Origin: Aquabacterium humicola | Lineage (GTDB): Bacteria; Pseudomonadota; Gammaproteobacteria; Burkholderiales; Burkholderiaceae_C | DNA: 64,000 nucleotides | Direction: 5' to 3' | NCBI RefSeq assembly: GCF_030167915.1 | Contig: NZ_JARGNB010000001.1 | Location: 1,922,001-1,986,000 of the forward strand | Shown here: positions 2,055 to 19,152 of the stretch, one piece after another | How the letters are laid out: each line of letters opens with the position of its first letter | Numbering within the stretch: position 1 is the stretch's first letter | The notes under the pieces: generated by a model | What the model was told of the DNA's origin: nothing | The model's database searches: none | Seen by the model: only the letters and a program-made list of their open reading frames with translations | Program-made: the position numbers and the translations under genes

Positions 2055-3395
2055 ATGAGCGCTTCCGACGCGCCGGTCGGTGCCGACCTCGCCGCCGCGC
2101 TCGCGGCCGCCATCGAGCTGCTGCGCAGCGAACGGCTGCCGGAGGCGGAAGCCGCGCTCGACGCGCTGCTGGCCTGCTGGCCGCAGCAACCGGACGCGCT
2201 GCATTACCTCGGCGTGCTGCGCCACGCGCAAGGGCGCGCCGACGACGCGGTGACGCTGGTGCGGCAGTCGCTGGCGGTGGCGCCGGGCAACGTCGGTGCG
2301 TGGAACAACCTGGGCAACATCCTGCTGCTGGCGCAGCGCTTCGACGAGGCGGCCGAGGCCTACGAGGCCAGCGTGGACGCGGCGCAGGGCACGCCGGAAG
2401 CCTCGCGCGCGCTCGACAACCTGGCGGTGCTGTACCGCCGGCAGGGGCAGGCGGCCGCGGCCGAGCGGGTCGCGCGGCGCGCGATCGAGCTGAACCCGGA
2501 CGATGGGGATGCCTGGTACCGGCTGTCGCAGTCGCTGCTCGACCAGGGCCAGGTGCGCGAGGGCCTGCTCGCCAACAGCCGCGCGGTCGCCTTGTGGCCG
2601 CGCCACCAGCAGGCGCGCAGCGACGTGCTGCGCGCGCTGGTGCTGCTGGGCGAACGGCAGCGCGCGGCGGCGCTGTACCGCGAATGGCTGGACGAGGAGC
2701 CCGACAATCCCGTCGTGCAGCACCTGCTCGCCGCCAGCTCCGGCGAGTCGACGCCGGAGCGCGCCAGCGATGCCTACGTCGAGCAGGTCTTCGACAGCTT
2801 CGCCGCGTCCTTCGACGCCAAGCTCGAGTCGTTGAATTACCGCGCGCCGTCGCTGGTCGCGCAGGCGCTGCGCGAGGCCGTCGGCGAGCCGGCCGGCGAC
2901 CTGCAGATCGCCGACCTCGGCTGCGGCACCGGCCTGTGCGGCCCGCTGCTGCGACCCTTCGCGGCGCGGCTGGCCGGCTGCGACCTGTCGGTGGGCATGC
3001 TGCGCCAGGCCCAGGCCCGCCGCGCCTACGACCAGCTGCACAAGGCCGAGCTCGGCCACTACCTGCGCACGCAGCCCGATGATTTCGACGTGCTGGTGTC
3101 CGCCGACACGCTGATCTATTTCGGCGACCTGCACGCGGTGATGCACGACGCGCACACCGCGCTGCGCGCCGGCGGCTGGCTGATCTTCACCGTCGAAGCC
3201 TTGGCCGAGAACGACCCGGCGCCGCTGCAGCTGCAGCCGCACGGCCGTTATGCGCACCGGCGCAGCCATGTCGAGCAGGCGCTTGCCGCCGCCGGCCTGG
3301 CGCCCGACGCCATCACCGCCGAGACGCTGCGCACCGAAGGCGGCAAGCCGGTCGGCGGCTGGCTGGTGCGCGCGCGCAAGCTGCAACACGCCTGA
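2055..3395 (+). CDS. TPR protein fused to SAM-dependent methyltransferase
   Basis: This 446-residue protein has two parts. Residues about 10-230 form tetratricopeptide repeats with characteristic spacing (for example ALHYLGVLRHAQGRADDA and AWNNLGNILLLAQRFDEA). Residues about 250-440 form a class I methyltransferase. Motif I is IADLGCGTGLCGP at about 285-297, followed by the acidic loop CDLSVGML and the VLVSADTLIYFGDL region of motif IV. TPR-methyltransferases of this kind are annotated in bacteria, but their substrates are mostly unknown. It starts 29 bases after the peptidase gene and is followed by vgrG1, so it sits inside the T6SS locus. The TPR part could hold a partner for methylation, possibly the peptidase or a VgrG, but nothing in the sequence shows which. 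There is no signal peptide, so it is expected to be cytoplasmic. Confidence 0.82.
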   Translation: MSASDAPVGADLAAALAAAIELLRSERLPEAEAALDALLACWPQQPDALHYLGVLRHAQGRADDAVTLVRQSLAVAPGNVGAWNNLGNILLLAQRFDEAAEAYEASVDAAQGTPEASRALDNLAVLYRRQGQAAAAERVARRAIELNPDDGDAWYRLSQSLLDQGQVREGLLANSRAVALWPRHQQARSDVLRALVLLGERQRAAALYREWLDEEPDNPVVQHLLAASSGESTPERASDAYVEQVFDSFAASFDAKLESLNYRAPSLVAQALREAVGEPAGDLQIADLGCGTGLCGPLLRPFAARLAGCDLSVGMLRQAQARRAYDQLHKAELGHYLRTQPDDFDVLVSADTLIYFGDLHAVMHDAHTALRAGGWLIFTVEALAENDPAPLQLQPHGRYAHRRSHVEQALAAAGLAPDAITAETLRTEGGKPVGGWLVRARKLQHA

Positions 3396-3404
3396 AACAG
3401 CCGG

Positions 3405-3421
3405 TGTGACCTTCGGCGCTG
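3405..3421 (+). promoter_or_regulatory. Shared box upstream of vgrG1
   Basis: The sequence GTGACCTTCGGCGCTGG lies 77 bases before the vgrG1 start. It is nearly identical to the box before vgrG2 (11089-11103), differing by one base in TGAC[C/T]TTCGGCGCTG. In both places a CGCGCC stretch and a TCCCCC run follow. The repetition in two non-coding gaps suggests a regulatory site, or a trace of duplication of the module including its leader. No sigma-70 promoter is obvious. The function is inferred. Confidence 0.4.
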
Positions 3422-3483
3422 GCCCGGCCGCGCCGGTCCCCCGACCATCGGGGCACCGCACGAGCGCATCCGAAGTCCGTCCC

Positions 3484-6189
3484 ATGCCGATCGCCATCAC
3501 GCTGACCACGCCGCTGCCGCCTGCCGACCTGCGCTTCGAGGCGCTGACCCATTCCGCCGGGCTGTCGACGCTCGAGGAAACGCGGCTGCAGCTGCTGAGC
3601 GAAAAGGCCGACCTCGTGCCCGAGCAGCTGCTGGGGCACCCGGTCGACGTGGCGATCGAGCTGCGCGACGGCGCCAAGCGCCACTTTCACGGCTACGTCG
3701 CCCGCTTCGCCTTCGGCCGCCACCAGGGCCGCTACTACGGCTACCAGGCCGAGGTGGTGCCCTGGCTGTGGTTCCTGACGCGGCGCGCCGACTGCCGCAT
3801 CTTCCAGGACATGGACGTCCAGGAAATCGTCGAGAAGGTCTTCGAGAAGCACGCGGCGATCGCCAGCTACGAGTTCAAGCTGACGCGCCTGTACCGCAAG
3901 CGCACGTACTGCGTGCAGTACCGCGAGACCGACTTCAACTTCGTCGCGCGCCTGCTCGAGGACGAGGGCATCTACTGGTACTTCGAGCACACCGAAGGGC
4001 ATCACAAGCTGATCCTCGTCGACATGGCCTCGGCGCATGCCGCGGTGCCGGGCTTCGAGGCGTTGCCGTTCTACGCCAACACCGGGCAGCTGTCGCCCGA
4101 CGTCGACTTCGTCACCAACTGGAACTTCTCGCGCGGCGTCGCCAGCGGCGGCGTGGCGATGACCAGCTACAACTTCGAGTACCCCAAGAGCGCGCTGAAG
4201 GTCGCGCAGGCGGTGCAGCGGCAGTACGAGCTGTCGGCCTACGAGATGTTCGACTTCCAGGGCGACTACCAGGAAGTCTCCGACGGCCAGCAGCTGGCCG
4301 AGAACCGCATGGACGAGCTGCAGGCGCGCTTCGAGCAGGTCAGCGCGACGACCAATGCGCAGGGGCTCGCCACCGGCCACCTGTTCTCGCTGACGCGCCA
4401 TCCGCGCGGCGACCAGAACGCCGAGTTCCTCGTCGTGCAGACGCAGATCCGCGCCTCGATGACCGGCAGCGAAGCCGCCGGCGGCGGTGGCGGCGGCATC
4501 GGCAACGACGGCGAATACAGCTGCACCTTCAACGCGCTGCGCTCGTCGCAGCAGTTCCGCCCGGCGCGGCGCACGCCCAAGCCCTTCGTGCAGGGGCCGC
4601 AGTCGGCGGTCGTCGTCGGCGGCTCGGGCGACGAGATCTTCACCGACGCGCAGGGCCGGGTGAAGGTGCAGTTCCACTGGGACCGCTACGGCCAGAAGAA
4701 CGAGCACAGCTCCTGCTGGATGCGCGTGTCGCACCCGTGGGCCGGCAAGAGCTTCGGCATGATCCACATCCCGCGCGTCGGCCAGGAGGTCATCGTCGAC
4801 TTCCTCGAAGGCGACCCGGACCAGCCGCTGGTGACCGGCCGCGTCTACAACGCCGACCAGACCCCGCCGTGGCAGCTGCCCGGCGCCGCGACGCAGAGCG
4901 GCATCCTGACCCGCTCGACCAAGGGCGGCGCCTACGGCAACGCCAACATGCTGCGCTTCGAGGACAAGAAGGGCAGCGAGATGCTGGACCTGCATGCCGA
5001 GAAGGACATGTCCACCGTCGTCGAGAACGACCAGTCCTCCAGCATAGGCCGCGACCGCACCGAGCAGATCATGCGCGACCGGCGGGTGACCGTCGACCGC
5101 AAGGACACGCTGATCGTCAACAAGGCCGGCCGCTTCGTCACCGTGGCCGCGGGCGGCGAGGAAGTCAACGTCACCGGCGGGCGCAAGTACAACGTCAAGG
5201 GCGGGCTCGACCAGAACACCATCCTCAACGGCCGCATCACGAAGATCACCGGGCCGGAGTCGCTGGGCGTCACGGGCGACGTGCTCCGCGTCGTCAACGG
5301 CAAGACCACCGACATCCACAACGGCGACTTCAAGGTCGGCGTCACCGGCAACATCGTGTGCTCGGCCACCGGCACGGTCAACATGACCGCCGGCGGCGCG
5401 GTCGAGTACGTCGGCCCCAGCTTCAAGTGGACGACGCCGGGCAACCTCGAGTACTTCGGCAACCAGTTCAACCGCACGGTGAACCAGGCCAACGACGTCT
5501 TCCTCGGCCCCAACACCGGCACCTACATGGGCGCGGTGGCCAACACCCTCGTCGCCGGCGTGCGCGAGACCTTCGTCGGCCTGAAGAACTCGCTCGAGCT
5601 GTCGCTGGCGACCACCTGCACCATCGGTGCGTCGATCAACACCTCGATCTCCGCGGCGCTCAACGCCGGGTTGTCGGCGACCATCGAGATGATGGCCGGC
5701 CCCGAGCTGGTGATGGGTCCGCTGGGCCTGGAGCAGAAGTCGATCGACGTCGCGCAGAGCGCGCTGAAGGTGATCACCGGCGGCGGCGGCGCGGGCGGCG
5801 GCGGTGGCGGCGGTGGGGCCGCGGCGGCGGCGGCCGTCGGTGCGGGCGTCGGCCTGAGCGTGGGCGCCGCCATCGGCAACGCGATGGCCGCCTACGAGGA
5901 CATCGCCAAGTTCCTCGAGGACGTCAAGAAGGCGCCGAACTACGGTGAGGCGCGCAGCATGCTCGACGGCCCGACCCTGACCTCGATGGTGGCGACGATC
6001 TTCAGCGCCGGCACCAACGTCTACGAAGACGCGCATCCGGAACAGTCCGACGCCAAGATGAAGGAAAAGCAGGCCGAGATGAAGAAGCAGGCGGAAGCGC
6101 AGGCGGCGGCCGACCAGGCCGCGGCGCAGAAGGCGATGGACGCTTCGGCGAATCCGCCGGCGCCCGGCGGCGCGGGCGCCGGCCACTGA
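3484..6189 (+). CDS. vgrG: VgrG1, T6SS spike protein with extended C-terminus
   Basis: VgrG (TssI) trimers form the puncturing spike on the Hcp tube. The start chosen is the ATG at 3484, because the protein then aligns with the N-terminus of the second VgrG ([15 protein letters not shown] against LTSPLPAADLRFDSM). Longer in-frame extensions overlap the upstream gene. The resulting 901-residue protein has the gp27-like base (about 1-370), a gp5-like OB domain starting near residue 388 ([11 protein letters not shown], then [11 protein letters not shown] near 437), and a beta-helix stem. The C-terminal part differs completely from VgrG2. After residue 765 there is a glycine/alanine run, then a hydrophobic helix, and then a charged lysine/alanine/glutamine-rich tail likely to be coiled-coil (about 850-890). 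That extension may dock the DUF2169-pentapeptide protein encoded four bases downstream. No enzymatic motif was recognised in the tail. Confidence 0.95.
5779..5838 (+). repeat. GGC-rich tract coding a Gly/Ala run in VgrG1
   Basis: A run of GGC/GGT codons followed by GCG/GCC codons encodes about 12 glycines with one alanine and then a polyalanine stretch, starting at residue 766 of VgrG1. It separates the beta-helix stem from the C-terminal helical tail and probably acts as a flexible hinge. Such slippage-prone repeats can vary in length between strains. Confidence 0.8.
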
Positions 6190-6193
6190 TCCC

Positions 6194-8800
6194 ATGCAGG
6201 TCCACAAGCCTGCCTGTGTCGGCCTCGGCAGCCGCGTCGTCCAGCACCGCGGCAAGCTCGGACTGAGCATCTCCGCGACGCTGTACTTTCCGTTCCGTTC
6301 GGCCGAGCCCTTCGGCCTGTGGGCCGAAGCGTCGATGTGGCGCTTCCTTGCCAAGGAGATGGCCGAGCCGATCGTCGACGAAGGCGTCATCAAGACGCAG
6401 CCGGAGTTCCTGGTGCACGGCATCGCCTGCCCGCCGGACGGCCCGGCGCCCGCCTGCGCGGTGCGCGCGACGGTGGGCAGCGTGCAGAAGACGCTGGTCG
6501 TGCATGGCGACCGGCGCTGGGTCGGCCGCCAGCCCAGCGAGGCCGAGCCGTTCGCGCAACTGCCGCTGGACTGGACCCGGTCCTACGGTGGCCCGGCGTT
6601 CGCCGCCAACCCGGTCGGCCGCGGCCACGCGCCCGCCGAGGACGGCACGCACTGGCTGCCGAACATCGAGTACCCCAACGCGCCGACCACGCATCCGGAC
6701 AAGCCGCTGCCGCCGGCGGGCTTCGGCCGCATCGATCCGATGTGGACGCAGCGCGCGCAGCACCGCGGCACCTACGACGAGCAGTGGCTGCCGAACCATG
6801 CGCCGGGCTTCCCGCCCGACCTCGACTGGCGCCACTTCAACCTCGCGCCGCCCGACCAGTGGCTGCCGCAGCCGCTGCGCGGCGACGAGGCGTTCTCCTT
6901 CGACAACCTGCACCCGGGCAAGCGCAAGGTCGAGGGCCGCCTGCCGCCGCTGGCCTGCCGCGCCTTCATCCGCTACGGCTCGGGGCCGCTTCAGGGCAAG
7001 CTGCGCCACGTGCCGCTGGCGCTGTCGACGCTGTGGTTCTTCCCGCATGCCGAGTGCGGCGTGATGGTGTTCCACGGCCTCGCCAACTGCGCCGAGGACG
7101 ACGCGGCCGACGTGCAGACGCTGATGTGCGCGGTCGAGCGCATCGGCCAGCATCGCCCCGAGGAGCACTACCTCGATGTGCTGCAGCGGCGCGAGGACCC
7201 GAAGCTCGGCGCGCTGTTCGCGCTGATCGAGTCCGACCTCGCGCCCACCGACCTCGACCTGGTGGACCCCGAGATGGCCGCCGCCGAGGCCGACTACCAG
7301 GTGCAGGGCTTCGTCGGCGAGGCGCAGTTCCGCGGCGCCGAGGTCAAGCTCGACATGGTGCGCAAGGACCTGATCGCCAAGGGGCTGGACCCCGATGCGC
7401 TCGGCGTCAAGCCGCTGGTGCGGCAGCGGCCGCCGACGCTGTCCGAGCTGCCGGCGCTGGTCGAGAAGACCATGCGCGAGGGTCTGCAGGAAACCGCCCG
7501 CGCGGCGATCGCCGCAGCCAAGGACATCGTCGAGGCCAAGCGCAAGGCAGAGCAGCATGGCGTCGATCTCGCGAAGATGAAGGTCAAGGGACCGCCGCAG
7601 TTCAAGGCCGCGCGCGAGCTGGCGATGCTGGCGACGCAGCTGAAGCACCACCCCGATCCGCAGGCCGGTGCGGCCAAGCTGCTGGCCGTCGCGCCCAAGC
7701 TGGCCGAGGCCGAAGGCGCGCAGCGCCTGGCCTACCGGCTCGGTGCGCACCTCCAGGAGCCGGCCGATGCGCTGCCGCCGGAGGACTCCGATCCGCGGCG
7801 CGCGCAGGTGATCGCGCTGCTGAAGCAAGGCAAGAGCCTGGCGCTGACCGGTCTGACCGGCGTCGACCTGTCGGGCATCGATTTCACCGGCGCCGACCTG
7901 ACCGGCGCGCACCTCGAGAGCGCGAACCTGCGCGGCGCGAAGCTGGCGGGCGCGAAGCTCGCCGAGGCCGTGCTCGCCCATGCGCAGCTGCAGGGCGCCG
8001 ACCTGCGCGGCGCGCAGCTGCAGCGCGCCAACCTGGGTGGCGCCGCGCTCGCCGGCGCGGTGTTCGACGAGGCCGATTGCAGCCACGCGAACTTCGGCAC
8101 CTGCGTGCTCGACGAGGTGTCCTTCGTGCGCGCGGTCCTGATGCAGACGCAGTGGCTCGACTGCCAATTCGGCCGCTGCGACTGGCGCGGCGCCAATGCC
8201 GCCAGCGTGATGCTGCTGAAGCACACGCTCGACGGCCTGGTCGCCGACGGTGCCGACTTCTCGCAGGCCAACTTCATCGAGTGTTCGCTGGCCGGCACGC
8301 GCTTCGTGCAGGCGCGGCTCGCGTCGGCCAACTTCATCACCTGCAACCTGTCCGGTGCGGTCTTCACCGGCGCGCAGCTGCCGCAATGCATCTTCGCGCA
8401 GGGCTGCGACCTGCAGCGGGCCGACTTCGCGCAGGCCCGGTTGCCGGGCGCCAACCTGCGCGGCGCCAGGCTGGCCGGCGCGCGTTTCACGCAGGCCGAC
8501 GCCGCGGGCGCCGACTTCTCCGAAGCCGATCTCACCGAGGCGCAGCTCGAAGGCGCGTCCTTCGCCGGCGGGCTGCTGATCCGCACCCGCTTCGAACGCG
8601 CGCGCGCCGCGCAGAGCAACTGGATGAATGCCATCGCCCAGAAGGCCGACCTGCGCGGCACCGACCTGCGCGGCGCCAACCTCTACGGCGCCGATGTCTC
8701 GCAGGTGCTGATCGACGAGCACACGCAGCTGGCCGGCGCGCTGAACGACCGCATGAAGATCCACCCGCGCCGCCGCGCACCGACGGTGACCGGGACATGA
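6194..8800 (+). CDS. DUF2169 adaptor fused to pentapeptide repeats
   Basis: This 868-residue protein combines an N-terminal DUF2169 domain (about 1-300, with [22 protein letters not shown] and RIDPMW segments) with a C-terminal pentapeptide-repeat domain from about residue 555 to 850 (many A(D/N)LxG units). Between them is a charged, lysine-rich helical region (about 400-550). DUF2169 proteins are found beside vgrG and PAAR-like genes and are regarded as adaptors that help load effectors onto the spike. The pentapeptide part should fold as a right-handed quadrilateral beta-helix, a shape suited to a rigid rod or protein-binding surface. The gene begins four bases after vgrG1 and is clearly in its operon. 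The fusion is larger than the 362-residue stand-alone DUF2169 protein in the second module. No nuclease, lipase or peptidase motif was seen. Confidence 0.88.
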
Positions 8801-8858
8801 GCACGACCAGCCGTTCCGAAGGGCTCATCCCGAAGCACTCAGTGCGGAGGGCAGTCCC

Positions 8859-9920
8859 GTGAGCACGCCCAGCCTGACCATCGTCGACCTCACGCTGCTG
8901 GCGACCCACGGCGAGCCCATCGTCGGCCACCAGCTGCAGGGCATCCAGCTCGCGCGCGCGCCGCTGCCGGGCGCGGTGTTCAGCCGCGTCAATTTCCAGG
9001 AAGCCGACTTCAGCGGCGCCGACCTGCGCGAGGCGGTCTTCGACCAGTGCGACTTCACCGGCGCCAATTTCAGCGGCGCGCAGCTGCGCGCGGCGGTCTT
9101 CAACCGCTGCCGCTTCCAGCAGGTGCAGGCCGCCGGCGCGAAGATGCACGCGGCGAAGTTCGTCGACACCGGCCTGCAGGACACGGTGCTCACCGGCGCC
9201 GATCTGAACCTGGCCGCGTTCCACCGCTGCCGCCTGTCGCGCGCGCAGCTCGGCGGCGCGCTGATCGACCGCAGCACCTTCGTCGGCTGCGCCTTCCCGC
9301 AGGCGGTGCTGCGGCAGGTCGCCTTCCACCAGGTCACGCTGTCCGGCGTCGACCTGGAAGGCGCCGACTGGGCGGGTTCGAGCTTTGCCGGAGTCGTCTT
9401 CCACGAGGTGAACCTCGACGGCCGCAGCTTCGCCGGCCTTCGCCTGACCGGCTGCCAGTTCCCCGGCAGCTCGCTGCAGAACGCCGACTTCGAAGGCGCG
9501 ACGCTGACGCAGAGCAACTTCCAGGCGGTGCCGCTGGGCGCCGCGAACTTCACCCGGGCCGACGCGGCGATGGCGATCTTCGTCAAGGCCCGCGCGCAAG
9601 GCGCCCGCTTCGGCGGCGCGCGGCTGCGCCACGCGCTCTTCGCCGAGGCCCAGCTCGACCGCTGCGTGTTCGACGGGGCCGATCTCTATCAAGGTTACTT
9701 CGCGGACGCCACGCTGCAGCAATGCAGCCTGCGCGACTGCGAGCTGACCTATGCCGATTTTTCGCGCGCCCGCCTGCCGCAGTGCCAGCTGCAGGGCAGC
9801 CGGCTCGAACGCGCGAAGTTCCACCGTGCCGAGCTGGCCGGCACCGAGCTGCCGGCGGGCCATGGTTCGCTCGGCACCGACCCCGTGCAGGCCAAGGCCG
9901 AGCTCTGGCCCAACGGCTGA
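8859..9920 (+). CDS. Pentapeptide-repeat protein
   Basis: This 353-residue protein is made almost wholly of pentapeptide repeats (ADFSGADLREAVF, GANFSGAQLRAAVF and similar) from about residue 20 to 345. A single long right-handed beta-helix is therefore expected. The GTG at 8859 is chosen because GGAGGG stands 7 bases upstream and the protein then opens with MSTPSLTIVDLTLLATHG; no in-frame ATG fits. It follows the DUF2169-pentapeptide gene by 58 bases and shares its repeat style, suggesting that the two arose by duplication of the repeat domain or that they bind each other. Stand-alone pentapeptide proteins can mimic DNA and inhibit gyrase (MfpA/Qnr), but the T6SS setting makes a structural or adaptor role more likely. 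That role is inferred. Confidence 0.85.
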   Translation: MSTPSLTIVDLTLLATHGEPIVGHQLQGIQLARAPLPGAVFSRVNFQEADFSGADLREAVFDQCDFTGANFSGAQLRAAVFNRCRFQQVQAAGAKMHAAKFVDTGLQDTVLTGADLNLAAFHRCRLSRAQLGGALIDRSTFVGCAFPQAVLRQVAFHQVTLSGVDLEGADWAGSSFAGVVFHEVNLDGRSFAGLRLTGCQFPGSSLQNADFEGATLTQSNFQAVPLGAANFTRADAAMAIFVKARAQGARFGGARLRHALFAEAQLDRCVFDGADLYQGYFADATLQQCSLRDCELTYADFSRARLPQCQLQGSRLERAKFHRAELAGTELPAGHGSLGTDPVQAKAELWPNG

Positions 9921-9946
9921 CCTTCATCGTTTTCAGGAGTGCCTCG

Positions 9947-10645
9947 ATGACCACCCCCTCCCTCGCATCCGCGGCCACCACCCGCCCCGCCCCGCTGCCG
10001 CCGGCGCAGCCCGCGGCGCTGCTGCCCGCACACACGCCCACGCCATGGCAGGGCCCCGGCGTGGTCTGCGCCGAGGCCGACGGCGCCTGGGTGGTGAACG
10101 CCGACACCGGCTCGTTCCGCGCCCGGCTGGCCGCGTCCTGCCTGCTGCAGCCGCAGGTGGGCGACACCGTGTGGTGCTGCGGCGTGGTGTGCGACGCGGC
10201 CCCGGCCGCCGCCGACGCTGGCCAGGCCGCCCGCTACTGGATCACGCTGGTGCTCGAACGCGCCGAAACCGCCGGCGCGCGGGTGCAGCTGCCGGCCGAT
10301 GCGACCCTCGCCAGCGCCGACGGCCGCCTCGCGCTGCAGGCCGACGAGCTGCAGGTGCGTAGCGGCCGCCTGTCGCTGCTGACCGAACAGGCCAGCGTGA
10401 TCGGCGGCGCGTGGGAGGCGGTGCTCGGCGCGGTGCAGCTGACCGGCCAGACGCTGCGCTCGGTGTTCGACCGCGTGACGCACACCGCGCAGCAGCACCG
10501 CCGCGTGACGACAGGCATCGACGCCGTGCATGCCGACGTGCTGGAGCTGCAGGCCAACCAGCTGGCCAGCGTGCACGGCGAGCACGTCATCGTGCAGGGC
10601 GAGCGGCTGATCAAGTCGCGCGCCGCCCAGATCCACATGGGCTGA
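9947..10645 (+). CDS. DUF3540 domain protein, T6SS-associated
   Basis: This 232-residue protein matches the DUF3540 family found in T6SS accessory gene sets. The ATG at 9947 is preceded by AGGAG (about 9934-9938). A proline/alanine-rich N-terminus of some 40 residues leads into a beta-rich region (GVVCAEADGAWVVNADTG) that resembles a small OB-type barrel. After it come beta strands (TLASADGRLALQADELQVR) and an amphipathic helix (VFDRVTHTAQQHRRVTTGI). The end (HVIVQGERLIKSRAAQIHMG) resembles the VgrG beta-helix stem. It lies 17 bases before a DUF4150 PAAR-like gene, and the pair may form part of the spike tip assembly. The precise role of the family is not established. Confidence 0.78.
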   Translation: MTTPSLASAATTRPAPLPPAQPAALLPAHTPTPWQGPGVVCAEADGAWVVNADTGSFRARLAASCLLQPQVGDTVWCCGVVCDAAPAAADAGQAARYWITLVLERAETAGARVQLPADATLASADGRLALQADELQVRSGRLSLLTEQASVIGGAWEAVLGAVQLTGQTLRSVFDRVTHTAQQHRRVTTGIDAVHADVLELQANQLASVHGEHVIVQGERLIKSRAAQIHMG

Positions 10646-10662
10646 CCGCCGGGAGCGCCACG

Positions 10663-11055
10663 ATGTTCGCCAACTGCCAGCTGATGGGCATGGACATGGG
10701 CTTCCCCGATGTCTGCCTGACGCCGACGCCGGTGCCCACGCCGATCCCCTACCCGAACATCGCGATGGGGCCGACGGCGGTGCCGAACAACCCCACCGTG
10801 CTGTTCATGATGGGCCCGGCCCACAACATGGCAACGACGATCCCGATGACCAACGGCGACAACGCCGGCGTCAACCTGGGCGTCGCCTCGGGCACGGTGA
10901 TGGGTCCGTCGCGCCACCTGACCGCCGCCTTCACGGTGCTGATCAACGGCGCGCCGGCGACCCGCCTGACCAGCATGAGCCTGCAGAACAGCACCAACTG
11001 CCCCGGTGCGCGCATCGTGCCGAGCCAGACGCTGGTGCTGCTGCTGGCGCCGTAG
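10663..11055 (+). CDS. DUF4150 PAAR-like spike tip protein
   Basis: This 130-residue protein has the DUF4150 signature: a short N-terminus, FPDVCLTPTP, then VPTPIPYPNIA, and later VMGPSRHLTAAFTVLINGAPATRL. DUF4150 proteins are PAAR-like and are thought to cap the VgrG spike, sometimes carrying effector domains. This one is a bare tip without an extension. The start is the ATG at 10663, just after GGGAG. It closes the first vgrG module and is followed by the leader of vgrG2. Its paralogue at 15516 in module 2 keeps the same FPDVC and PIPYPN motifs, but the proteins are otherwise diverged, so each VgrG may have its own tip. Confidence 0.85.
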   Translation: MFANCQLMGMDMGFPDVCLTPTPVPTPIPYPNIAMGPTAVPNNPTVLFMMGPAHNMATTIPMTNGDNAGVNLGVASGTVMGPSRHLTAAFTVLINGAPATRLTSMSLQNSTNCPGARIVPSQTLVLLLAP

Positions 11056-11136: not shown

Positions 11137-13332
11137 ATGGCGACCACGACGCTGCCGATCTCGCTGACGAGCCCGCTGCCGGCGGCGGACCTGCGCTTCG
11201 ACTCGATGAGCTACACGTCGGGCCTGAGCGTGCTCGACGAGCTGCACCTGAACCTGCTGAGCGAGAAGGCCGACATCGAGCCCGACAAGCTGCTGGGCCA
11301 GCAGATCGATCTCGAGGTCGAGCTGCGCGAAGGCGAGCTGCGTCACATCTGCGGCTACGTCGCCCGCTTCGGCATGGGCCGTCACCAGGGCCGCTACTAC
11401 GGCTACCGCGCCGAGGTCGTGCCCTGGCTGTGGTTCCTGACGCGCAGTGCCGACTGCCGCATCTTCCAGCAGATGTCGGTGCCGGAGATCGTCGAGAAGG
11501 TCTTCGGCGACCACGCGGCCATCGCCAGCTTCGAGTTCAAGCTCGCGGGCAGCTACCGCAAGCGCGAGTACTGCGTGCAGTACCGCGAGACCGACTTCAA
11601 CTTCGTCAGCCGGCTGATGGAGGAGGAAGGCATCTACTGGTTCTTCGAGCACACGGCCGGCGAGCACAAGCTGATCATCGTCGACGCCACCAGCGCGCAC
11701 GCCGCGGTGCCCGGCTACGAGAAGCTGCCCTTCTACGGCAATACCGGCCAGCTCTCGCCCGACGTCGACTTCGTCTCGAACTGGAACTTCAGCCGCGGCG
11801 TGCGCACCGGCAAGGTCGTGCTGCGCAGCTACAACTTCGAGACGCCGTCGACCAGCCTGGAAGTGCAGCAGAGCGTCGGCCGCGCGCATGACCAGGCCAC
11901 GCACGAGCAGTTCGACTGGCAGGGCGACTACCTGAAGAAGCCCGACGGCCAGCACCTGGCCGACATGCGCATCGACGAGCTGCAGACGCGCCACGAGCAG
12001 CGCTCGGGCCTGAGCAACGCCTACGGGCTGGCCAGCGGTCACCTCTTCACGCTGACGCGCCATCCGCGCGCCGACCAGAACGCCGAGTACCTGTGCGTGC
12101 AGGCGCAGGTGCAGGCACAGATCAACGGGCTGGAGGCGGGCAATGCCGCCGGCCCGAACGGCGGCCAGAACGGCGGCGAATGGCAGTGCAGCTTCGCCGC
12201 GATCCCGTCGAGCCAGCAGTTCCGCCCGCCGCGGCGCACGCCCAAGCCCTTCGTCCAGGGCCCGCAGACCGCTGTCGTCGTCGGCCCCGCCGGCGAGGAG
12301 ATCTTCACCGACAAGTACGGCCGGGTGAAGGTGCAGTTCCACTGGGACCGCGAGGGCAAGAAGAACGAGAGCAGCTCGTGCTGGATGCGTGTGTCCTCGC
12401 CGTGGGCCGGCAAGAGCTTCGGCTTCGTGCAGATCCCGCGCATCGGCCAGGAGGTCATCGTCGACTTCCTCGAGGGCGACCCCGACCAGCCGATCATCAC
12501 CGGCCGCGTCTACAACGCCGAGCAGATGCCGCCGTGGGAGCTGCCGGCCAACGCCACGCAGTCGGGCGTGCTGTCGCGCTCGAGCAAGGGCGGCGCGTAC
12601 GGCAATGCCAACGCGCTGCGCTTCGAGGACAAGAAGGGCGCCGAGCAGGTCTGGCTGCATGCCGAGAAGAACCAGGACATCGAGGTCGAGAACGACGAGA
12701 CGCACTGGGTCGGCCACGACCGCACGAAGACCATCGACCACGACGAGACCGAACACGTCAAGCACGACCGCACGAAGACGATCGACAACGACGAGAAGGT
12801 GCACGTCAAGCATGACCGCACCGAGACCGTCGACAACAACGAGAAGATCACGATCGGCGTCAACCGCACCGAGAGCGTCGGCAACAACGAGTCGATCTCG
12901 ATCGGCAACAACCGCACCGAGAGCGTCGGCGCCAGCGAGACCGTGTCGGTCGGCAAGAACCGCACGCACGACATCGGCGAGAACGAGTCGCTGACCGTCG
13001 GCAAGGACCGCAATCACTCGGTCGGCAAGAACGAGACGATCTCGATCGGCACCGACCAGACCGAGACCATCGGCAAGAACCTCAAGCTGCAGGTCGGCGA
13101 GAACCGCCAGAGCAACGTCGCCAAGGACGACAAGCTGCAGGTCGGCAAGAAGTTCTTCCTCGAGGCCGGCGACGAGATCACGCTGAAGACCGGCGATGCC
13201 AGCATCACGATGAAGAAGGACGGCACGATCACGATCAAGGGCAAGGACATCACGGTCCAGGGCAGCGGCAAGATCGCCATCAAGGCCTCCAGCGACGTCG
13301 TGATCAAGGGCTCCAAGATCGCTGAAAACTGA
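11137..13332 (+). CDS. vgrG: VgrG2, T6SS spike protein
   Basis: This is a 731-residue VgrG of standard architecture. The gp27-like base occupies about residues 1-375. The gp5 OB fold starts near 391 ([11 protein letters not shown]) and continues through [16 protein letters not shown] and [12 protein letters not shown] long beta-helix stem made of 14-residue repeats runs from about 525 to 670, ending in ITIKGKDITVQGSGKIAIK. Unlike VgrG1 there is no extra effector-like tail. The first 500 residues are closely similar to VgrG1, including long stretches of identical DNA (for example around 3908 and 11569), so the two are recent or homogenised paralogues. It heads the second module; the DUF2169 gene begins on the base where its TGA starts (TGATG), implying translational coupling. 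The cargo served is probably the AHH nuclease encoded downstream. Confidence 0.96.
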   Translation: MATTTLPISLTSPLPAADLRFDSMSYTSGLSVLDELHLNLLSEKADIEPDKLLGQQIDLEVELREGELRHICGYVARFGMGRHQGRYYGYRAEVVPWLWFLTRSADCRIFQQMSVPEIVEKVFGDHAAIASFEFKLAGSYRKREYCVQYRETDFNFVSRLMEEEGIYWFFEHTAGEHKLIIVDATSAHAAVPGYEKLPFYGNTGQLSPDVDFVSNWNFSRGVRTGKVVLRSYNFETPSTSLEVQQSVGRAHDQATHEQFDWQGDYLKKPDGQHLADMRIDELQTRHEQRSGLSNAYGLASGHLFTLTRHPRADQNAEYLCVQAQVQAQINGLEAGNAAGPNGGQNGGEWQCSFAAIPSSQQFRPPRRTPKPFVQGPQTAVVVGPAGEEIFTDKYGRVKVQFHWDREGKKNESSSCWMRVSSPWAGKSFGFVQIPRIGQEVIVDFLEGDPDQPIITGRVYNAEQMPPWELPANATQSGVLSRSSKGGAYGNANALRFEDKKGAEQVWLHAEKNQDIEVENDETHWVGHDRTKTIDHDETEHVKHDRTKTIDNDEKVHVKHDRTETVDNNEKITIGVNRTESVGNNESISIGNNRTESVGASETVSVGKNRTHDIGENESLTVGKDRNHSVGKNETISIGTDQTETIGKNLKLQVGENRQSNVAKDDKLQVGKKFFLEAGDEITLKTGDASITMKKDGTITIKGKDITVQGSGKIAIKASSDVVIKGSKIAEN
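12712..13146 (+). repeat. 14-residue tandem repeats of the VgrG2 stem
   Basis: About ten degenerate 42-base units encode a 14-residue pattern of the type HDRTKTIDHDETEHV, GVNRTESVGNNESI and GKNRTHDIGENESL. In VgrG proteins this pattern makes the triple-stranded beta-helix needle. The units are similar enough at DNA level to allow unequal recombination, so needle length may vary between relatives. Confidence 0.75.
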
Positions 13333-14420
13333 TGCTCCAGGTCGACAACCAGACCCCCTTCGGCGCCGCGCTGTCGGTGTTCCCCGACGTGCGTGGGGTC
13401 GAGACCGCGTACCTGGTGCTGAAGGCGACGTTCCAGTTCGCTTCGCGCGGGCCAAAGCTGGCCGAGAAGCAGATTCCCCTGCTCGCCGCGGACGTGTTCT
13501 GGGGCGACCCGCAGTCGACCAGCCTGCGCGCGGGCGGCGACTTCGCGCCGTCGAAACCGGCGACCGACGTGCTGCTGGTCGGCCGGGCCATCGCCCAGAC
13601 GCCGGGCACCCGCGTGGCCGACGTGCGGCTGCGTGTCGGCCCGGTCGCGAAGGTGGTTCGCGTGTTCGGCGACCGGCGCTGGGAGCGCTCGGGCCAGACG
13701 CTGGTGCCCTCCGCGCCGCAACCGTGGGAACGCGTGCCGCTGCGCTGGGAATACGCCTTCGGCGGCATCGCCGCCGCGGCTCCCGGGCAGGATCCGTCGC
13801 AGCGCGAGCATGAGCCGCACAACCCGGTCGGCCGCGGGGTCGCCGGCCCCGATCCGATGGCGCTGGCCGGCCAGCTGCTGCCGAACCTCGAGGACCCCGC
13901 CGCGCCCATCGCCTCGCCGCAGGACCGGCCGCGTCCCGCCGGCTTCGCGCCGGTCGCGCCGAGCTGGATGCCGCGCCGCGCCTATGCCGGCACCTACGAC
14001 GCCGCATGGCAGCGCGAGCGCGCGCCCTACCTGCCGCTGGACTTCGACCCGCGCTATTTCCAGCTCGCCCCCGCCGGCCTCGTGGCGCCGGGCCACCTGC
14101 AGGGCGGCGAGCCGGTGGAGCTCGACGGTTTCACGCTCGGCGGGCCGCTGCGCTTCACACTGCCGCAGCTGACGCTGGACACCGACTTCCATTTCGACGG
14201 CCGCTGGCAGCCGCGGCCGCCGCTGCTCGAAACCGTGCTGTTCGAGCCCGACCAGGGCCGCTTCCAGATGTTGTGGCGCGCGGCGCTGCCGGTCGACAAG
14301 AAGCTGCTGCGGCTGGCCGAGGTGCGCGTGCGCTGCGCCGAACACGGGTCCGATGGCCGCCCGCCGCCGCCGCTGGCGTCGCTGCAGTCGCTGCCACCGG
14401 CCTATGCGGAGGCGCGCTGA
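13332..14420 (+). CDS. DUF2169 T6SS adaptor protein
   Basis: This 362-residue protein consists of the DUF2169 domain alone. It opens with QVDNQTPFGAALSVFPDVRG and carries FGDRRWER, LRWEYAFGG, NPVGRGVAGPDP and APSWMPRRAYAGTYD, the hallmarks that it shares with the N-terminal half of the fusion at 6194. DUF2169 proteins act beside vgrG and PAAR-like genes, probably as chaperones or adaptors for effector loading. The ATG overlaps the vgrG2 stop codon. Its immediate neighbours (ketosynthase-like protein, DUF4150 tip, AHH nuclease) suggest that it belongs to the delivery set of that nuclease. No signal peptide is present. Confidence 0.87.
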   Translation: MLQVDNQTPFGAALSVFPDVRGVETAYLVLKATFQFASRGPKLAEKQIPLLAADVFWGDPQSTSLRAGGDFAPSKPATDVLLVGRAIAQTPGTRVADVRLRVGPVAKVVRVFGDRRWERSGQTLVPSAPQPWERVPLRWEYAFGGIAAAAPGQDPSQREHEPHNPVGRGVAGPDPMALAGQLLPNLEDPAAPIASPQDRPRPAGFAPVAPSWMPRRAYAGTYDAAWQRERAPYLPLDFDPRYFQLAPAGLVAPGHLQGGEPVELDGFTLGGPLRFTLPQLTLDTDFHFDGRWQPRPPLLETVLFEPDQGRFQMLWRAALPVDKKLLRLAEVRVRCAEHGSDGRPPPPLASLQSLPPAYAEAR

Positions 14421-14432
14421 CGCGCGAAGACG

Positions 14433-15497
14433 ATGGCCACGCCACGCATCGTCATCGCAGGCGCCGGCGTGATCACGCCGATCGGCCTGAGCCTCGCGGA
14501 GACCGCCGCGTCGGCGCGCGCGCGCGTCGCGCGGCTGCGCGAGATCGAGTGGCGCGACCGCCGCTTCGAGCCCTTCGTCGCCGGCACCGTGCCCGACGAG
14601 GGCCTGCCGCCGCTGGCGCCGGCGCTGGCGGCGCAGGGACTGTCGCGGCGCGAGGCCCGCCTGCTGCAGCTGGCGCACGCGGCGCTCGAGGAAGCCCTGG
14701 CGCCGCTCGGCGGTCGGGGCGGCGCGCTGCCGCTGCTGCTCGCCTTGCCCGAGCACCATACGCTGCAGCCGATCGACGCCGGCCGCTTCCTGCTGCGGCT
14801 GGCGCAGCAGGCGCCCGGCGCGATCGACACCGGCGCCAGCGCCGCGGCACCGCGCGGCCGTGCCGCCGGCCTGCTGGCGCTGCGGCGCGCAGCGGAAAAA
14901 CTCGCCGAGGGCGGCAGCCCGTGGATCGTCGTCGGCGGTGTCGACAGCCTGGTCGACCTCTACGTGCTGGGGCTGTTCGACGATGCCGGCCGCATCCGCA
15001 ACGGCGTCACGAGCGACGGCTTCAGCCCGTCCGAAGGCGCCGCCTTTCTGCTGCTGACCACCGCCGAGACCGCGCACGCACGCGGCGTCACGCCGCTCGC
15101 GACCTTGCTGGGCACCGGCCAGGGCCTCGAAGCCGGCCACCTGTACTCGGACGAGCCCTACCTCGGCGAAGGCCTCGCCGCGGCCTTCGCGCAGCTGCTG
15201 GCCGAGAGCCCGCCGCCGCAACCGATCGGCACCGTGTGGTGCAGCTTCAACGGCGAACGCTACTGGGCGCGCGAGTTCGGCGTGGCGCGCACGCGGCAGT
15301 CGGCCGCCTTCGCGCCCACGCAGACCATGGAGCACCCGGCCGAATGTTTCGGCGATCTCGGCGCGGCCTGCGGCCCGGCGCTGGCGGCGCTGGCCGCGCA
15401 CAGCGTGCACCACGGCTGGCGCGCCGACCCCAGCCTGGTCTACGCGTCGTCCGACCGCGGCGAGCGCGGCGCCGCGCTGCTCGGCCGCTGCGAATGA
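14433..15497 (+). CDS. Ketosynthase-like protein without catalytic residues
   Basis: This 354-residue protein has the thiolase/beta-ketoacyl-synthase fold pattern. It starts with RIVIAGAGVITPIGLSLAET, as in KAS enzymes (VVVTGxGxxTPxG), and later has VVGGVDSLVDLYVLGLFDDAG and SDGFSPSEGAAFLLL, equivalent to the DGFxxGEGA segment. The nucleophile motif DTACSS is replaced by DTGASA, so the cysteine is lost. The later Lys and GH motifs are replaced by a segment reading MEHPAECFGDLGAACGPALA. Condensing activity is therefore very unlikely. It lies between a DUF2169 adaptor and a DUF4150 tip protein. Such proteins are annotated as 3-oxoacyl-ACP synthase in some T6SS loci, but a binding or scaffold role is the better inference. 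The start is the ATG at 14433, with a weak ribosome site (GAAGA). Confidence 0.8.
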   Translation: MATPRIVIAGAGVITPIGLSLAETAASARARVARLREIEWRDRRFEPFVAGTVPDEGLPPLAPALAAQGLSRREARLLQLAHAALEEALAPLGGRGGALPLLLALPEHHTLQPIDAGRFLLRLAQQAPGAIDTGASAAAPRGRAAGLLALRRAAEKLAEGGSPWIVVGGVDSLVDLYVLGLFDDAGRIRNGVTSDGFSPSEGAAFLLLTTAETAHARGVTPLATLLGTGQGLEAGHLYSDEPYLGEGLAAAFAQLLAESPPPQPIGTVWCSFNGERYWAREFGVARTRQSAAFAPTQTMEHPAECFGDLGAACGPALAALAAHSVHHGWRADPSLVYASSDRGERGAALLGRCE

Positions 15498-15515
15498 CAC
15501 CCGAAAGACACGACC

Positions 15516-15896
15516 ATGCCTTGCACCGTCCACAACATCACCGGCTTCGCGCACAAGGGCAGCAGCGGCATGAGCCTGGTCTTCCCGGACGTCTGCAAGA
15601 CGCCCGCGCCACCGGCGCCGCCGATCCCGATCCCCTATCCGAACCTCGGCAAGTCGGCCGATACCAGCCAGGGCACCACCAAGGTCGAGGCCGACGGCAA
15701 CATGATCATGGTGAAGGGCGCGAAGTACATGATGAGCACCGGCGACGAGCCGGGCAGCATCGGCGGCATCATCAGCGGCGTCTTCAAGAGCGAGTGCGAG
15801 TACCTGATGTACTCGTTCAACGTGATGCTCGAAGGCAAGAACGTCTGCCGCATGGGCGACCCGCTGTGGCACAACAAGAAGAACATCTGCGGCTGA
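15516..15896 (+). CDS. DUF4150 PAAR-like spike tip protein
   Basis: This 126-residue DUF4150 family protein shows GMSLVFPDVCKTP, then PIPIPYPNLG, and an ending of CRMGDPLWHNKKNICG. It is the module 2 counterpart of the protein at 10663 and is expected to sharpen the VgrG2 tip. No effector domain is fused to it. The nuclease encoded 28 bases downstream is a separate polypeptide that is probably carried with this tip. Several cysteines and histidines (FPDVC, KSECEY, NVCRMGD, NICG) could bind a metal, as PAAR tips do, but the zinc ligands of classical PAAR proteins are not strictly recognisable here. Confidence 0.86.
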   Translation: MPCTVHNITGFAHKGSSGMSLVFPDVCKTPAPPAPPIPIPYPNLGKSADTSQGTTKVEADGNMIMVKGAKYMMSTGDEPGSIGGIISGVFKSECEYLMYSFNVMLEGKNVCRMGDPLWHNKKNICG

Positions 15897-15924
15897 GGCC
15901 GCGACACCGACCGGAGCCCGCACG

Positions 15925-16872
15925 ATGACCGAACTCGCCGAACCGATCGCCATCGGCATCACCGCCGAGGAAGCAGCCGCCGACTGCCCGTTCGCCGACG
16001 CGGCGGCGGGCGTCGACACGCTCGAAGCCGAGGACATCCCCAAGGACGACCTGCCCGCCGCCACCGCCACGCAGGAGAACGACGGCGGCGTGCTGGGCAG
16101 GAACATGATCAGCGGCTCGCCCGGCAAGGACGGCACCGTCGGCGGCCCCGTGCCACCGCCGACGATGAAGGCCGATCCGCGCCTGGACACCGCGCGCAGC
16201 GGCCGCAAGGTGCGCGTGCCCGGGACCAGCGACATCGCCGAGGGTGTCTACGGCTTCACCGTCGCCGCCCACCACCTGATCCCCGGCGACGCGGCCCTGA
16301 AGCCCAGCAACCTCAAGGCCCTGATGACCAAGGACGAGACGGTCGAGGTCACCGTCACCGGCGGCGCGAAGAAGAACAAGAAGATCCGCAAGCACATCGG
16401 CTACAACGTCAACGGCGCGCACAACGGCGTCTGGCTGCCAGGCAACTACTACATCCGCGGCAATACCTCGCCGGTCAGCGGGCAGAGCTGGTCGGACCTC
16501 GGCGACAACCCGTGGTGCCGCAACTACGTGGCCGCAGTGTCGATGGCCGCCGGCGGCCAGATCCACGATGCGCATACCAAGTACAGCGCGGCCGTCGAGA
16601 CGGTGCTGAACAAGTGGGCCGCGGTGCTGGTGGACCATGAGTGCGACAAGTGCAAGGCGCCGGACATCAACCCGCCGTTCGAGGTCAAGGCCCGGCTGTA
16701 CGCGCTGTCGGGCTTCCTGAAGACGCAGGTCACCTCCGGGCCGATGGCCTGGAAGCGGCCCTGGTTCACCTCCGACCGGTGGCGCGACGACGCCTTCGAC
16801 GGCGGCAAGCCGAGCGCGGCCTTCATGGCCGCCTACAACAATGCCGGCCTGGTCGGCGTGACGCCCATTTGA
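15925..16872 (+). CDS. AHH-family nuclease, predicted T6SS toxin
   Basis: This 315-residue protein has a disordered, acidic and proline-rich first 100 residues followed by an AHH nuclease domain of the HNH/endonuclease VII group. The signature is clear. AAHHLIPGDAA has Ala115-His116-His117. IGYNVNGAHNGVWLP has His166-Asn167. QIHDAHTKY has His214, His217 and Tyr220. A Cys pair (ECDKCK) follows and may be structural. AHH nucleases cleave DNA or RNA and are common toxin tips of polymorphic toxins and T6SS effectors. There is no signal peptide. It comes directly after a DUF4150 tip gene and 19 bases before an Imm11-like gene, a textbook toxin/immunity layout. The likely prey is a neighbouring bacterium. 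The choice between DNA and RNA substrate cannot be read from the sequence. Confidence 0.85.
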   Translation: MTELAEPIAIGITAEEAAADCPFADAAAGVDTLEAEDIPKDDLPAATATQENDGGVLGRNMISGSPGKDGTVGGPVPPPTMKADPRLDTARSGRKVRVPGTSDIAEGVYGFTVAAHHLIPGDAALKPSNLKALMTKDETVEVTVTGGAKKNKKIRKHIGYNVNGAHNGVWLPGNYYIRGNTSPVSGQSWSDLGDNPWCRNYVAAVSMAAGGQIHDAHTKYSAAVETVLNKWAAVLVDHECDKCKAPDINPPFEVKARLYALSGFLKTQVTSGPMAWKRPWFTSDRWRDDAFDGGKPSAAFMAAYNNAGLVGVTPI

Positions 16873-16891
16873 TGAACTAGGAATCCCGACG

Positions 16892-17449
16892 ATGGCTTAT
16901 TTCGTGATGGTCGGCGAGGGCAAGCACCCGGTGATGCCGATCGCCTCCGGCCCCGAGAACCTCAAGGGCAACTGGTACCTCGGCCGGGCGATCACCGACG
17001 CCGTGCCGCAGCCGCTGGTCTACACGCTGGACCCCGACTACGGCGGCAAGCCGAAGGCGATGTACGGCGAGAAGGCGATCCCGGTGATGCGCGACGACGT
17101 GATCGCCGCGTTGTCCGGCGCCGGCGTCGACAACATCCAGTACTTCGATGCCGTGCTGAAGGACCCGGCCAGCGGCGCCGAGTACCGCGACTACAAGGCC
17201 TTCAACATCGTCGGCCTGGTGGCGTGCGCCGACCCCGCGTCGCAGCTGATGGGCACATCGCCCGCGCGCATGGGCGACACCGACTACGCGGCGCTGGTGA
17301 TCGACGAATCGAAGACCGGCGGTGCGCTGCTGTTCCGCATGGCCGAGAACGTCAGCGCGATCGTCGTGCACGAGCGCGTCAAGCAGGCGATCGAGGTGGC
17401 CGGCATCCCCGGCTTCGTGTTCTACGGTCCCGGCGAGTGGTCGGGTTGA
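16892..17449 (+). CDS. DUF1629/Imm11-like immunity protein
   Basis: This 185-residue cytoplasmic protein resembles the DUF1629 (Imm11) family. It shows YFVMVGEG at the start, AIPVMRDDVIAALSGAGVDNIQYFDAVL in the middle, FNIVGLVACADPASQLMG, and a closing block LLFRMAENVSAIVVHERVKQAIEVAGIPGFVFY that matches the usual FR...VSExVKxAxExAGxxG pattern. Members are predicted immunity proteins of polymorphic toxin systems and frequently follow AHH or related nucleases. It lies right after the AHH nuclease gene in the same operon, so it most likely neutralises that toxin in the producing cell by direct binding. The family call is from pattern and context, without a search. Confidence 0.75.
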   Translation: MAYFVMVGEGKHPVMPIASGPENLKGNWYLGRAITDAVPQPLVYTLDPDYGGKPKAMYGEKAIPVMRDDVIAALSGAGVDNIQYFDAVLKDPASGAEYRDYKAFNIVGLVACADPASQLMGTSPARMGDTDYAALVIDESKTGGALLFRMAENVSAIVVHERVKQAIEVAGIPGFVFYGPGEWSG

Positions 17450-17474
17450 CGGTCGACTGAAGGAGGGATCGACG

Positions 17475-17930
17475 ATGGCTGCCAAGAAACCGATCGCCCG
17501 CGTCGTCGCGCTGCCGCCGGCCAACCCCACGCCGGCGGCCGTCGCCGACGAGCGCTTCCCGTTCCGCGCCCGGCTGGTCGCAGTCAGCGGCGACGGCACG
17601 CTGCTGGTCGAGGATGCGCAGGGCCGCCGCCAGGAATGCGACTGGCTCGCCGGCCCCGCGACCGTCGGCACGCCGCTGGCGCCGGACGACGCCGTGCTGG
17701 TGCAGCCGCTGGGCGGCGATGCGCGGGCCGTCGTGCTCGGCCGCATCGTCGCCTACACCGCGGCGCCGGAGCACGTGACGATCCGCGCCGCCGAGACGCT
17801 GACGCTGCAGTGCGGCGACAGCCAGGTCGACCTGCGCGCCGACGGCAAGCTGATGATCCGCGGCGACGACGTGCTGGTGCGCGCGAAGGGCACGCAGCGC
17901 ATCCGCGCCGGCACGGTGGCGATCAACTGA
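17475..17930 (+). CDS. DUF6484 domain protein, T6SS-associated
   Basis: This 151-residue protein starts at the ATG at 17475, preceded by AGGAGG (about 17460-17466). After a short basic N-terminus it has a small beta-barrel region (FRARLVAVSGDGTLLVEDAQGR, then DAVLVQPLGG and VVLGRIVAYT). It ends in regular beta strands (HVTIRAAETLTLQCGDSQVDL, KLMIRGDDVLVRAKGT) that resemble the VgrG needle. This corresponds to DUF6484, found beside DUF4150 and DUF2169 genes in T6SS loci. It looks like the module 2 analogue of the DUF3540 protein in module 1: both combine a barrel with a needle-like end. The function is unknown; a spike accessory part is inferred. Confidence 0.7.
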   Translation: MAAKKPIARVVALPPANPTPAAVADERFPFRARLVAVSGDGTLLVEDAQGRRQECDWLAGPATVGTPLAPDDAVLVQPLGGDARAVVLGRIVAYTAAPEHVTIRAAETLTLQCGDSQVDLRADGKLMIRGDDVLVRAKGTQRIRAGTVAIN

Positions 17931-17946
17931 GCGGCAGGCCGGCACG

Positions 17947-19152
17947 ATGGCGCGGTGGCGCTACATCCCCGAACTGCTCGACCGGCACGCCGAGGACCTG
18001 GCCTTCCTCGCCGGCCAGCGCCGCGACGCGCTGCAGTCGCCGCGCCACACGCTGCGCGAGTTCGGCGAGCTCAACGAACGCATCGAGGCGCATGTGCAGG
18101 GCCTGCTGGTCGCCCCGGCGCAGACGCTGCTGGCGCGGCTGGAACCGCAGCTGCACGGCGACGACCGCGACGAGGCCTTCGCCGCCGCCTATGCGCTGCT
18201 GCGTCGCGAAGCGCCGTCGACGCAGCAGGCCGTACTGGCCGGCTTCGGCCAGGCCAGCGGCGCGGCGCTGCTGGGGCTGCGCGACGCCTTCAGCCTCGCG
18301 CCGCTCGGCGCGCACCAGCCCGCGCTACTGGCGCTGGCCGAGCGTGCTGCAGCGCCGGTCGCCGCCGCCGCGGCGGTCGTGCTGGCCAACCACCGGCAGC
18401 TCGACGGGGCGTTGCCGCGGCTGCAGGACCTGCTGCTCGACGAGGACGCCGCGGTCTGCCGTGCGGCCTGGCTGGCCGCGCTGCATGCCGACGCGCGAGC
18501 CGGCGCACCGGCGCACAAGCGCCCCTACCAGCACGCGCTGGGGCACGCGTCAGCTGCGGTGCGCTATGCCGCGTGGGCCGCTGCCGCGTGGACCGGCCAG
18601 GCGCAGGCGCTTCCGCTGCTGCGCCATGTCGCCGCCGGCGACGATGCGGTGGCGCTGCACTGGCTCGCGGTGCTCGGCGGCATCGAGGACGTCGCCACGG
18701 TGCAGCGCGCGGCGCTGCGCCTGGACGATGCGCAGGCACGCTGCACGCTGCTGTCGCGCTTCGGCCACCCGTCGGCGCTGAATGCGCTGGTGCGCTGGAT
18801 GGGTGAAGACGACGTGGCGCTGGCCGCGGCCTCGGGCGAGGCCTTCACCCGCATCACCGGCATCGACGTGCGCGGCGAGCGCCGCCCGCTGCCGGTGCCC
18901 GAGCAGGCCGACGCGTTCGAGCGCGAGATGGCCCCGCTGGTCTGGCTGCCCGATGCCGACAAGGCGCGCACGCTGGTGTCCGAACGCGGCGCCGAGTGGA
19001 TCGCCAGCCCGCGCTGGTGCAATGGCGTGCGCGTCGACGGCCCGCTGCCGCCCGATGCGCTGCTGCCCTTCGACCTGCAAGCGCGCTGGGACATCGGCGC
19101 CCGGGCCGCGCTCGCCGGCCGGCCGGTGTGCTCGCCGCCGCCGATCCACTGA
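17947..19152 (+). CDS. TIGR02270-type HEAT-like repeat protein
   Basis: This 401-residue protein opens with YIPELLDRHAEDLAFLAGQR and continues with alpha-helical, leucine/alanine-rich repeats containing ALLGLRDAF, ARLEPQLHG, AVLANHRQLDGALPRLQDLL and VRYAAWAAAAWTG. This is the appearance of HEAT-type repeats in the TIGR02270 family, an uncharacterised family encoded in T6SS and related loci. There is no signal peptide or catalytic motif. It ends the second vgrG module, 7 bases before the first kinase gene, so it may be cotranscribed with both. HEAT-type scaffolds bind other proteins, and a role in assembling the adaptor complex is plausible but unproven. Confidence 0.72.
   Translation: MARWRYIPELLDRHAEDLAFLAGQRRDALQSPRHTLREFGELNERIEAHVQGLLVAPAQTLLARLEPQLHGDDRDEAFAAAYALLRREAPSTQQAVLAGFGQASGAALLGLRDAFSLAPLGAHQPALLALAERAAAPVAAAAAVVLANHRQLDGALPRLQDLLLDEDAAVCRAAWLAALHADARAGAPAHKRPYQHALGHASAAVRYAAWAAAAWTGQAQALPLLRHVAAGDDAVALHWLAVLGGIEDVATVQRAALRLDDAQARCTLLSRFGHPSALNALVRWMGEDDVALAAASGEAFTRITGIDVRGERRPLPVPEQADAFEREMAPLVWLPDADKARTLVSERGAEWIASPRWCNGVRVDGPLPPDALLPFDLQARWDIGARAALAGRPVCSPPPIH

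Follow-up and report, generated by a model that had tools for sequence, protein, structure and literature searches.

A putative TvpD pseudoenzyme with a beta-ketoacyl-synthase fold in a type VI secretion spike module of Aquabacterium humicola

A 64,000-nucleotide stretch of the Aquabacterium humicola genome (contig NZ_JARGNB010000001.1, positions 1,922,001 to 1,986,000; hereafter, the window) was analyzed around an open reading frame (ORF) which encodes a 354-residue protein with the fold of a beta-ketoacyl synthase (KAS) and lies in a gene set for the spike of a type VI secretion system (T6SS). The ORF starts with ATG, ends with TGA and has a G+C content at third codon positions (GC3) of 0.93. 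The genes around it, all on the forward strand, follow the order VgrG, DUF2169 protein (TvpA), the KAS-like protein (TvpD), PAAR-like tip, AHH nuclease, Imm11-like protein, TvpC-like protein and TIGR02270 protein (Table 1), and their spacing suggests a single operon. The initial annotation of this DNA had correctly put the KAS-like gene between the DUF2169 gene and that of the Tox-PAAR-like tip; it had also closed the operon with the AHH nuclease, behind which the Imm11-like, TvpC-like and TIGR02270 genes in fact continue on the same strand.

It is quite probable that this gene is the tvpD of a Class II Tvp spike-assembly module, and that its product is a pseudoenzyme co-chaperone loading the PAAR-like tip onto VgrG. 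The name follows Monlezun, Earl and Coulthurst (2026; PMC13373197), in the available text of which PA0098 (PRK06147) is designated TvpD, a PAAR co-chaperone. The window protein matches the PRK06147 model (NF004798) over its full length (E 4.4e-57; residues 2-351, profile positions 2-342 of 349), and its gene, like that of PA0098, is placed between a single-domain DUF2169 gene (13332) and a DUF4150/PAAR-like tip gene (15516), the row also including TvpC-like and TIGR02270 genes. The DUF6484-type TvpC of a Class II module is represented by the TvpC-like protein: the Pfam DUF6484 model (PF20093) itself gave no match to it, and the protein was recognized by hhalign and hmmsearch in comparison with DUF6484-type ORFs of relatives (seed L041, itself matching PF20093). 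Compared with the published Class II Tvp, the window differs in that the tip is a stand-alone protein and the nuclease has a gene of its own, the TvpC-like gene follows the immunity gene and not vgrG, and a Class III module lies directly upstream. The family is sharply set off from ketosynthases: TvpD proteins scored at least 107 bits and ketosynthases at most 54, with no intermediate protein, and the corresponding gap in the phylum sample was 239.7 versus 57.5 bits (profile A3) or 226.9 versus 85.2 bits (123-row profile).

Model NF004798 is named a 3-oxoacyl-acyl carrier protein (ACP) synthase equivalog, yet it matches all 91 scanned relatives, and the catalytic Cys is absent from the 134 aligned ones. 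A functional proposal was built in 2013 on a synthase-type name of this kind, as far as the available text of that paper goes (Alteri et al., 2013; PMC3764213).

Table 1. Features of the window around the TvpD gene and codons of the former active site.
Feature	Position	Strand	Basis
Adjacent Class III-type module: VgrG (start 3250), DUF2169-pentapeptide (6194), pentapeptide (8859), DUF3540 (9953), PAAR-like tip (10642)	3250..11055	+	
VgrG of Class II module	11137..13332	+	profile matches
TvpA, single-domain DUF2169 chaperone	13332..14420	+	PF09937, E 4.9e-94
TvpD (PRK06147-like), probably dead KAS fold, 354 aa	14433..15497	+	ORF, profiles, AlphaFold2
R143 codon, catalytic Cys position of ketosynthases	14859..14861	+	
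N273 codon, first catalytic His position	15249..15251	+	
A303 codon, catalytic Lys position	15339..15341	+	
C305 codon, conserved Cys near old pocket by sequence position	15345..15347	+	
D308 codon, second catalytic His position	15354..15356	+	
Stand-alone PAAR-like (PIPY/DUF4150 type, Tox-PAAR-like) spike tip, 126 aa	15516..15896	+	PF13665, E 9.7e-42
AHH-family nuclease, likely cargo effector	15925..16872	+	PF14412, E 4.8e-6
Imm11-like, likely immunity protein; weak match below cut-off	16892..17449	+	PF07791, E 0.0013
TvpC-like, related to DUF6484 TvpC proteins	17475..17930	+	hhalign probability 99.1; hmmsearch E 2.5e-26
TIGR02270 HEAT-repeat protein, same module	17947..19152	+	110.3 bits, cut-off 206.8

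The KAS fold, proposed already by the initial annotation, was recovered in profile alignments and in the AlphaFold2 model, with coverage of residues 4 to 354. Sequence searches yielded no solved structure close to the TvpD family, a ketosynthase at 57 bits being the best profile match. In the profile-profile alignment of 123 TvpD proteins with 17 ketosynthases of the sampled genomes (probability 99.3, 325 columns), the ketosynthase Cys, His, Lys and His align to R143, N273, A303 and D308, respectively, the reference proteins themselves having Cys (15) or Ser (2) at the nucleophile position and His, Lys and His in 17 of 17. In the model, helix 142-159 begins at G142, where the Cys is to be expected, since the Cys-bearing residue of FabF structures sits at a helix start. 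The replacement of the Lys and GH motifs, as well as the lack of a catalytic Cys, was rightly noticed in the initial annotation, in which only the register of the nucleophile was mistaken: DTGASA (residues 132-137), taken there for a degenerate DTACSS site, was rejected, since the Cys aligns to R143 and DTGASA is not conserved in the family. Thus, of the features of an active beta-ketoacyl-ACP synthase, the protein retains the fold and has none of the catalytic Cys, His, Lys and His. From FabF/KAS II it differs both in the replacement of all four residues and in being mostly 50 to 70 residues shorter (354 versus 403-431).

The same positions are recoded throughout the sampled family. Residues were counted in 134 sequences, the window protein included, with the best 80 of 218 relatives kept in one sampling step, duplicates (L001, L006, L033, L034, L035, L122, L184, L189, L197) dropped, and two matches of genome G279 (C272, C133) left out for want of a locus. 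The Cys position is occupied by R in 71 sequences, H in 49, K in 4, Q and S in 3 each, T in 2, A and G in 1 each, and by Cys in none; among the first 123 sequences, a Cys occurs in three within 4 columns of this position, never at it. The first His position carries S (75), N (38), T (7), A (5), I (5), C, D or V (1 each), the Lys position A (121), T (3), G (3), M (2), V (2), S or I (1 each), and the second His position E (87), D (35), N (6), H (2), S, R or Q (1 each); a single gap at each of 273, 303 and 308 fits L112, a shortened sequence. The four positions read R/N/A/D in the window protein and R/S/A/E in the Pseudomonas aeruginosa PA7 member (L101), which is 29% identical to it. This recoding in 134 sampled relatives suggests that the common ancestor of the TvpD proteins was already a pseudoenzyme, and the initial view that a T6SS spike module here contains a KAS fold without catalysis appears to be right.

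In the covariation analysis, positions 273 and 308 rank third of 54,980 pairs at least 6 residues apart (91 effective sequences) and 281 and 345 sixth, a pattern to be expected of a refilled pocket; this is no more than suggestive, since relatedness was only down-weighted. Positions 143 and 308 were rejected as a proven covarying pair joined by a salt bridge (Fisher p 0.004 unweighted; rank 15,549 of 54,980 by weighted mutual information). Positions 143, 273, 281, 303, 308 and 345 may guide structure-based tests of the published chaperone prediction.

Two residues do not fit an entirely dead pocket. Of 133 sequences, 101 retain Cys305, which lies on the loop joining the old Lys and His positions, and 100 retain His301. 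A conserved Cys elsewhere in the pocket, named initially as a sign against the pseudoenzyme, is in part present here, but off the nucleophile position and replaced in 32 sequences. The old acyl pocket might still bind a small ligand (acyl chain, coenzyme A (CoA), ACP arm or metal), TvpD being then a sensor which ties tip loading to metabolism. The coverage of the whole KAS fold and the conservation of Cys305 and His301 by the old site would agree with this; we nevertheless hold it improbable, as the His, His and Lys positions are replaced in nearly all relatives, the covarying polar pair 273-308 looks like a refilled site, and a scan of the neighbours yielded no ACP or acyl-transfer gene. Still less credible is an enzyme with a re-wired site (e.g., Cys305-His301), such as an acyltransferase acting on the effector or immunity protein: the two residues co-occur in 90 of 123 sequences and the proposal for Proteus mirabilis PMI0754 in the available text of Alteri et al. 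(2013) speaks for it, but by our count the ketosynthase positions have lost their Cys, His or Lys, save for two His at the last one, Cys305 and His301 are themselves lost in 32 and 33 of 133, and position 305 is Tyr in L037 (same gene as in L167), whose module has VgrG, DUF2169 and tip.

A dead KAS fold without the Cys is known from the chain length factor of type II polyketide synthases, which carries Gln and is the partner subunit of a live ketosynthase. The actinorhodin 'beta-ketoacyl synthase 2' chain 1tqy_B is among the TvpD profile matches. TvpD differs in that Gln stands at the nucleophile position in only 3 of 134 sequences; among the genes scanned from 11137 to 19152 there was no ketosynthase match besides TvpD, and the two other matches of the genome lie far off.

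The genomic context was counted for 117 TvpD genes with longer flanks, the window included, within a reach of 6 kb. A tip was found in 109 of the 117, DUF2169 in 106, VgrG in 98 and TIGR02270 in 79, which places the relatives mostly at T6SS tip loci; many missing neighbours lie near contig ends. A DUF2169-matching ORF is present in each of the 80 named loci (in L099, as a 79-residue fragment). The 11 genes without DUF2169 in reach include three (L149, L153, L164) with more than 6 kb of sequence on both sides, to which the contig ends do not apply. L149 and L153 have the order TvpD, tip, nuclease (Tox-GHH2 and AHH, respectively) and a further gene, in a stretch without DUF2169 or VgrG, and their genomes have DUF2169 elsewhere (5 and 1 matches). 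That TvpD, besides acting as a chaperone, remains attached to the tip and is injected along with it, as a cap or co-cargo, is hardly to be expected, although its position beside tip and nuclease even without a nearby DUF2169 (L149, L153) would suit it. In 53 loci with all five genes, TvpD, tip and DUF2169 co-diverge, with mutual pairwise-distance correlations of 0.87-0.88, versus 0.41-0.55 with VgrG and 0.78-0.83 with TIGR02270.

At two TvpD loci without a nearby DUF2169 (L149:4032-6925 and L164:8071-11031) a response regulator and a histidine-kinase-like gene stand beside TvpD; in L164 the neighbours are a patatin gene and this type of two-component pair.

The family and its role are already named in the literature. 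The gene is called 'thiolase-like' in DUF2169 synteny type A by Sachar (2025; PMC11883445), with the same gene type and neighbours and with no residue analysis in the parts covered; PA0098 is likewise thiolase-like in the P. fluorescens F113 paper (PMC7970981, in part), and PRK06147 is listed among reported chaperone domains in the portion of a 2025 review at hand (PMC11925235). The words thiolase, ketoacyl and synthase do not occur in the main text of Monlezun et al., and in the open literature, as partly accessible, no statement of catalytic-residue loss in the TvpD/PRK06147 family was found. The initial annotation thus guessed the class of role, a dead fold as delivery adaptor in a T6SS module, correctly, but it is not a new use of the fold; the detail added here concerns the residues, the cassettes and the variant with a stand-alone tip.

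As to mechanism, PA0098 and PA0097 are predicted, in the available text of PMC13373197, to enclose the PAAR domain of Tse7 in a groove. By analogy with this work and that of Sachar (2025; PMC11883445), the tip would be bound, assembled in two steps and released before firing. The KAS/thiolase fold, presumably devoid of condensing activity, may have been kept as a rigid scaffold; TvpD and TvpA together would shield the hydrophobic PIPY tip until it is seated on VgrG, the TvpC-like VgrG mimic could offer it a temporary seat, and the AHH nuclease would be the likely cargo.

Several observations weigh against this assignment and role. The score of 193.9 bits is below the NCBIfam cut-off of 342 for NF004798, which is the naming threshold of the model and lies outside the published TvpD definition; it is exceeded in 1 of the 300 genomes of the order-level sample, by L004, with H/S/A/E at the four catalytic positions. 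The window tip is stand-alone (126 aa) with a separate nuclease, versus the PAAR proteins containing effector domains described for Class I and II in representative strains, a trait not stated as defining in the text available (PMC13373197); DUF4150 domains occur both alone and fused (Sachar, 2025, in part), and among the 108 TvpD genes whose tip was measured we found it to be stand-alone in 20 (the partial L175 being left out, and a single tip counting for both TvpD genes of L156). In L164, the TvpD-like gene (6502-7647) stands by itself, no T6SS gene having been found up to 6 kb away, and the counts in G534 (2 TvpD, 3 tips, 1 DUF2169) and G279 (3 TvpD, 4 tips over cut-off, 5 DUF2169) indicate that TvpD does not strictly track the tip. 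When TvpA, TvpD and the tip were modelled jointly by AlphaFold2, TvpA and TvpD folded well and the tip poorly (predicted template modelling score, pTM, 0.54; block means of the per-residue confidence, pLDDT, 32 to 64 for the tip), with no interface supported in a weak set-up, i.e., a read-through single chain with short linkers and a mostly unpaired alignment, without VgrG or TvpC. Inter-protein covariation in the main group (93/97 loci) gave 78, 66 and 329 pairs above the average of the maxima from six shufflings; the result is dominated by a few hub columns, without control for relatedness, so the signal is uninformative on the interface. Finally, complementation of an insertion in P. mirabilis 0754, probably a TvpD gene by its described annotation and two later papers, required the rest of the operon (PMC3764213, in part), and no experiment on a tvpD gene alone was found in the literature examined, as far as accessible.

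A more specific form of the co-chaperone role can be imagined, in which TvpD is a tip-dedicated clamp, its emptied active-site face, the former ACP dock, now docking the PIPY tip; TvpD, tip and nuclease would then travel between genomes as one cassette joining a resident DUF2169-VgrG set; we consider this rather unlikely.

The two Tvp modules, Class III (3250-11055) and Class II (11137-19152), form a tandem in which each has a VgrG, a DUF2169 protein and a tip of its own. A search of the own genome returned two DUF2169, two tips and one full-length PRK06147 match, all within these modules, and T6SS core genes (FHA, IcmF/TssM, DotU/TssL, VasE/TssK) lie at 29705-39973 of the window. Behind the Class II module, three consecutive Ser/Thr protein kinase genes occupy 18782-26455, two of them with long Ala/Pro-rich stretches. 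Upstream of the first VgrG, a gene for an Aspzincin_M35 metallopeptidase-domain protein (1007-2026), between an AAA/ClpB-D2 gene and a TPR-methyltransferase gene, possibly encodes further T6SS cargo.
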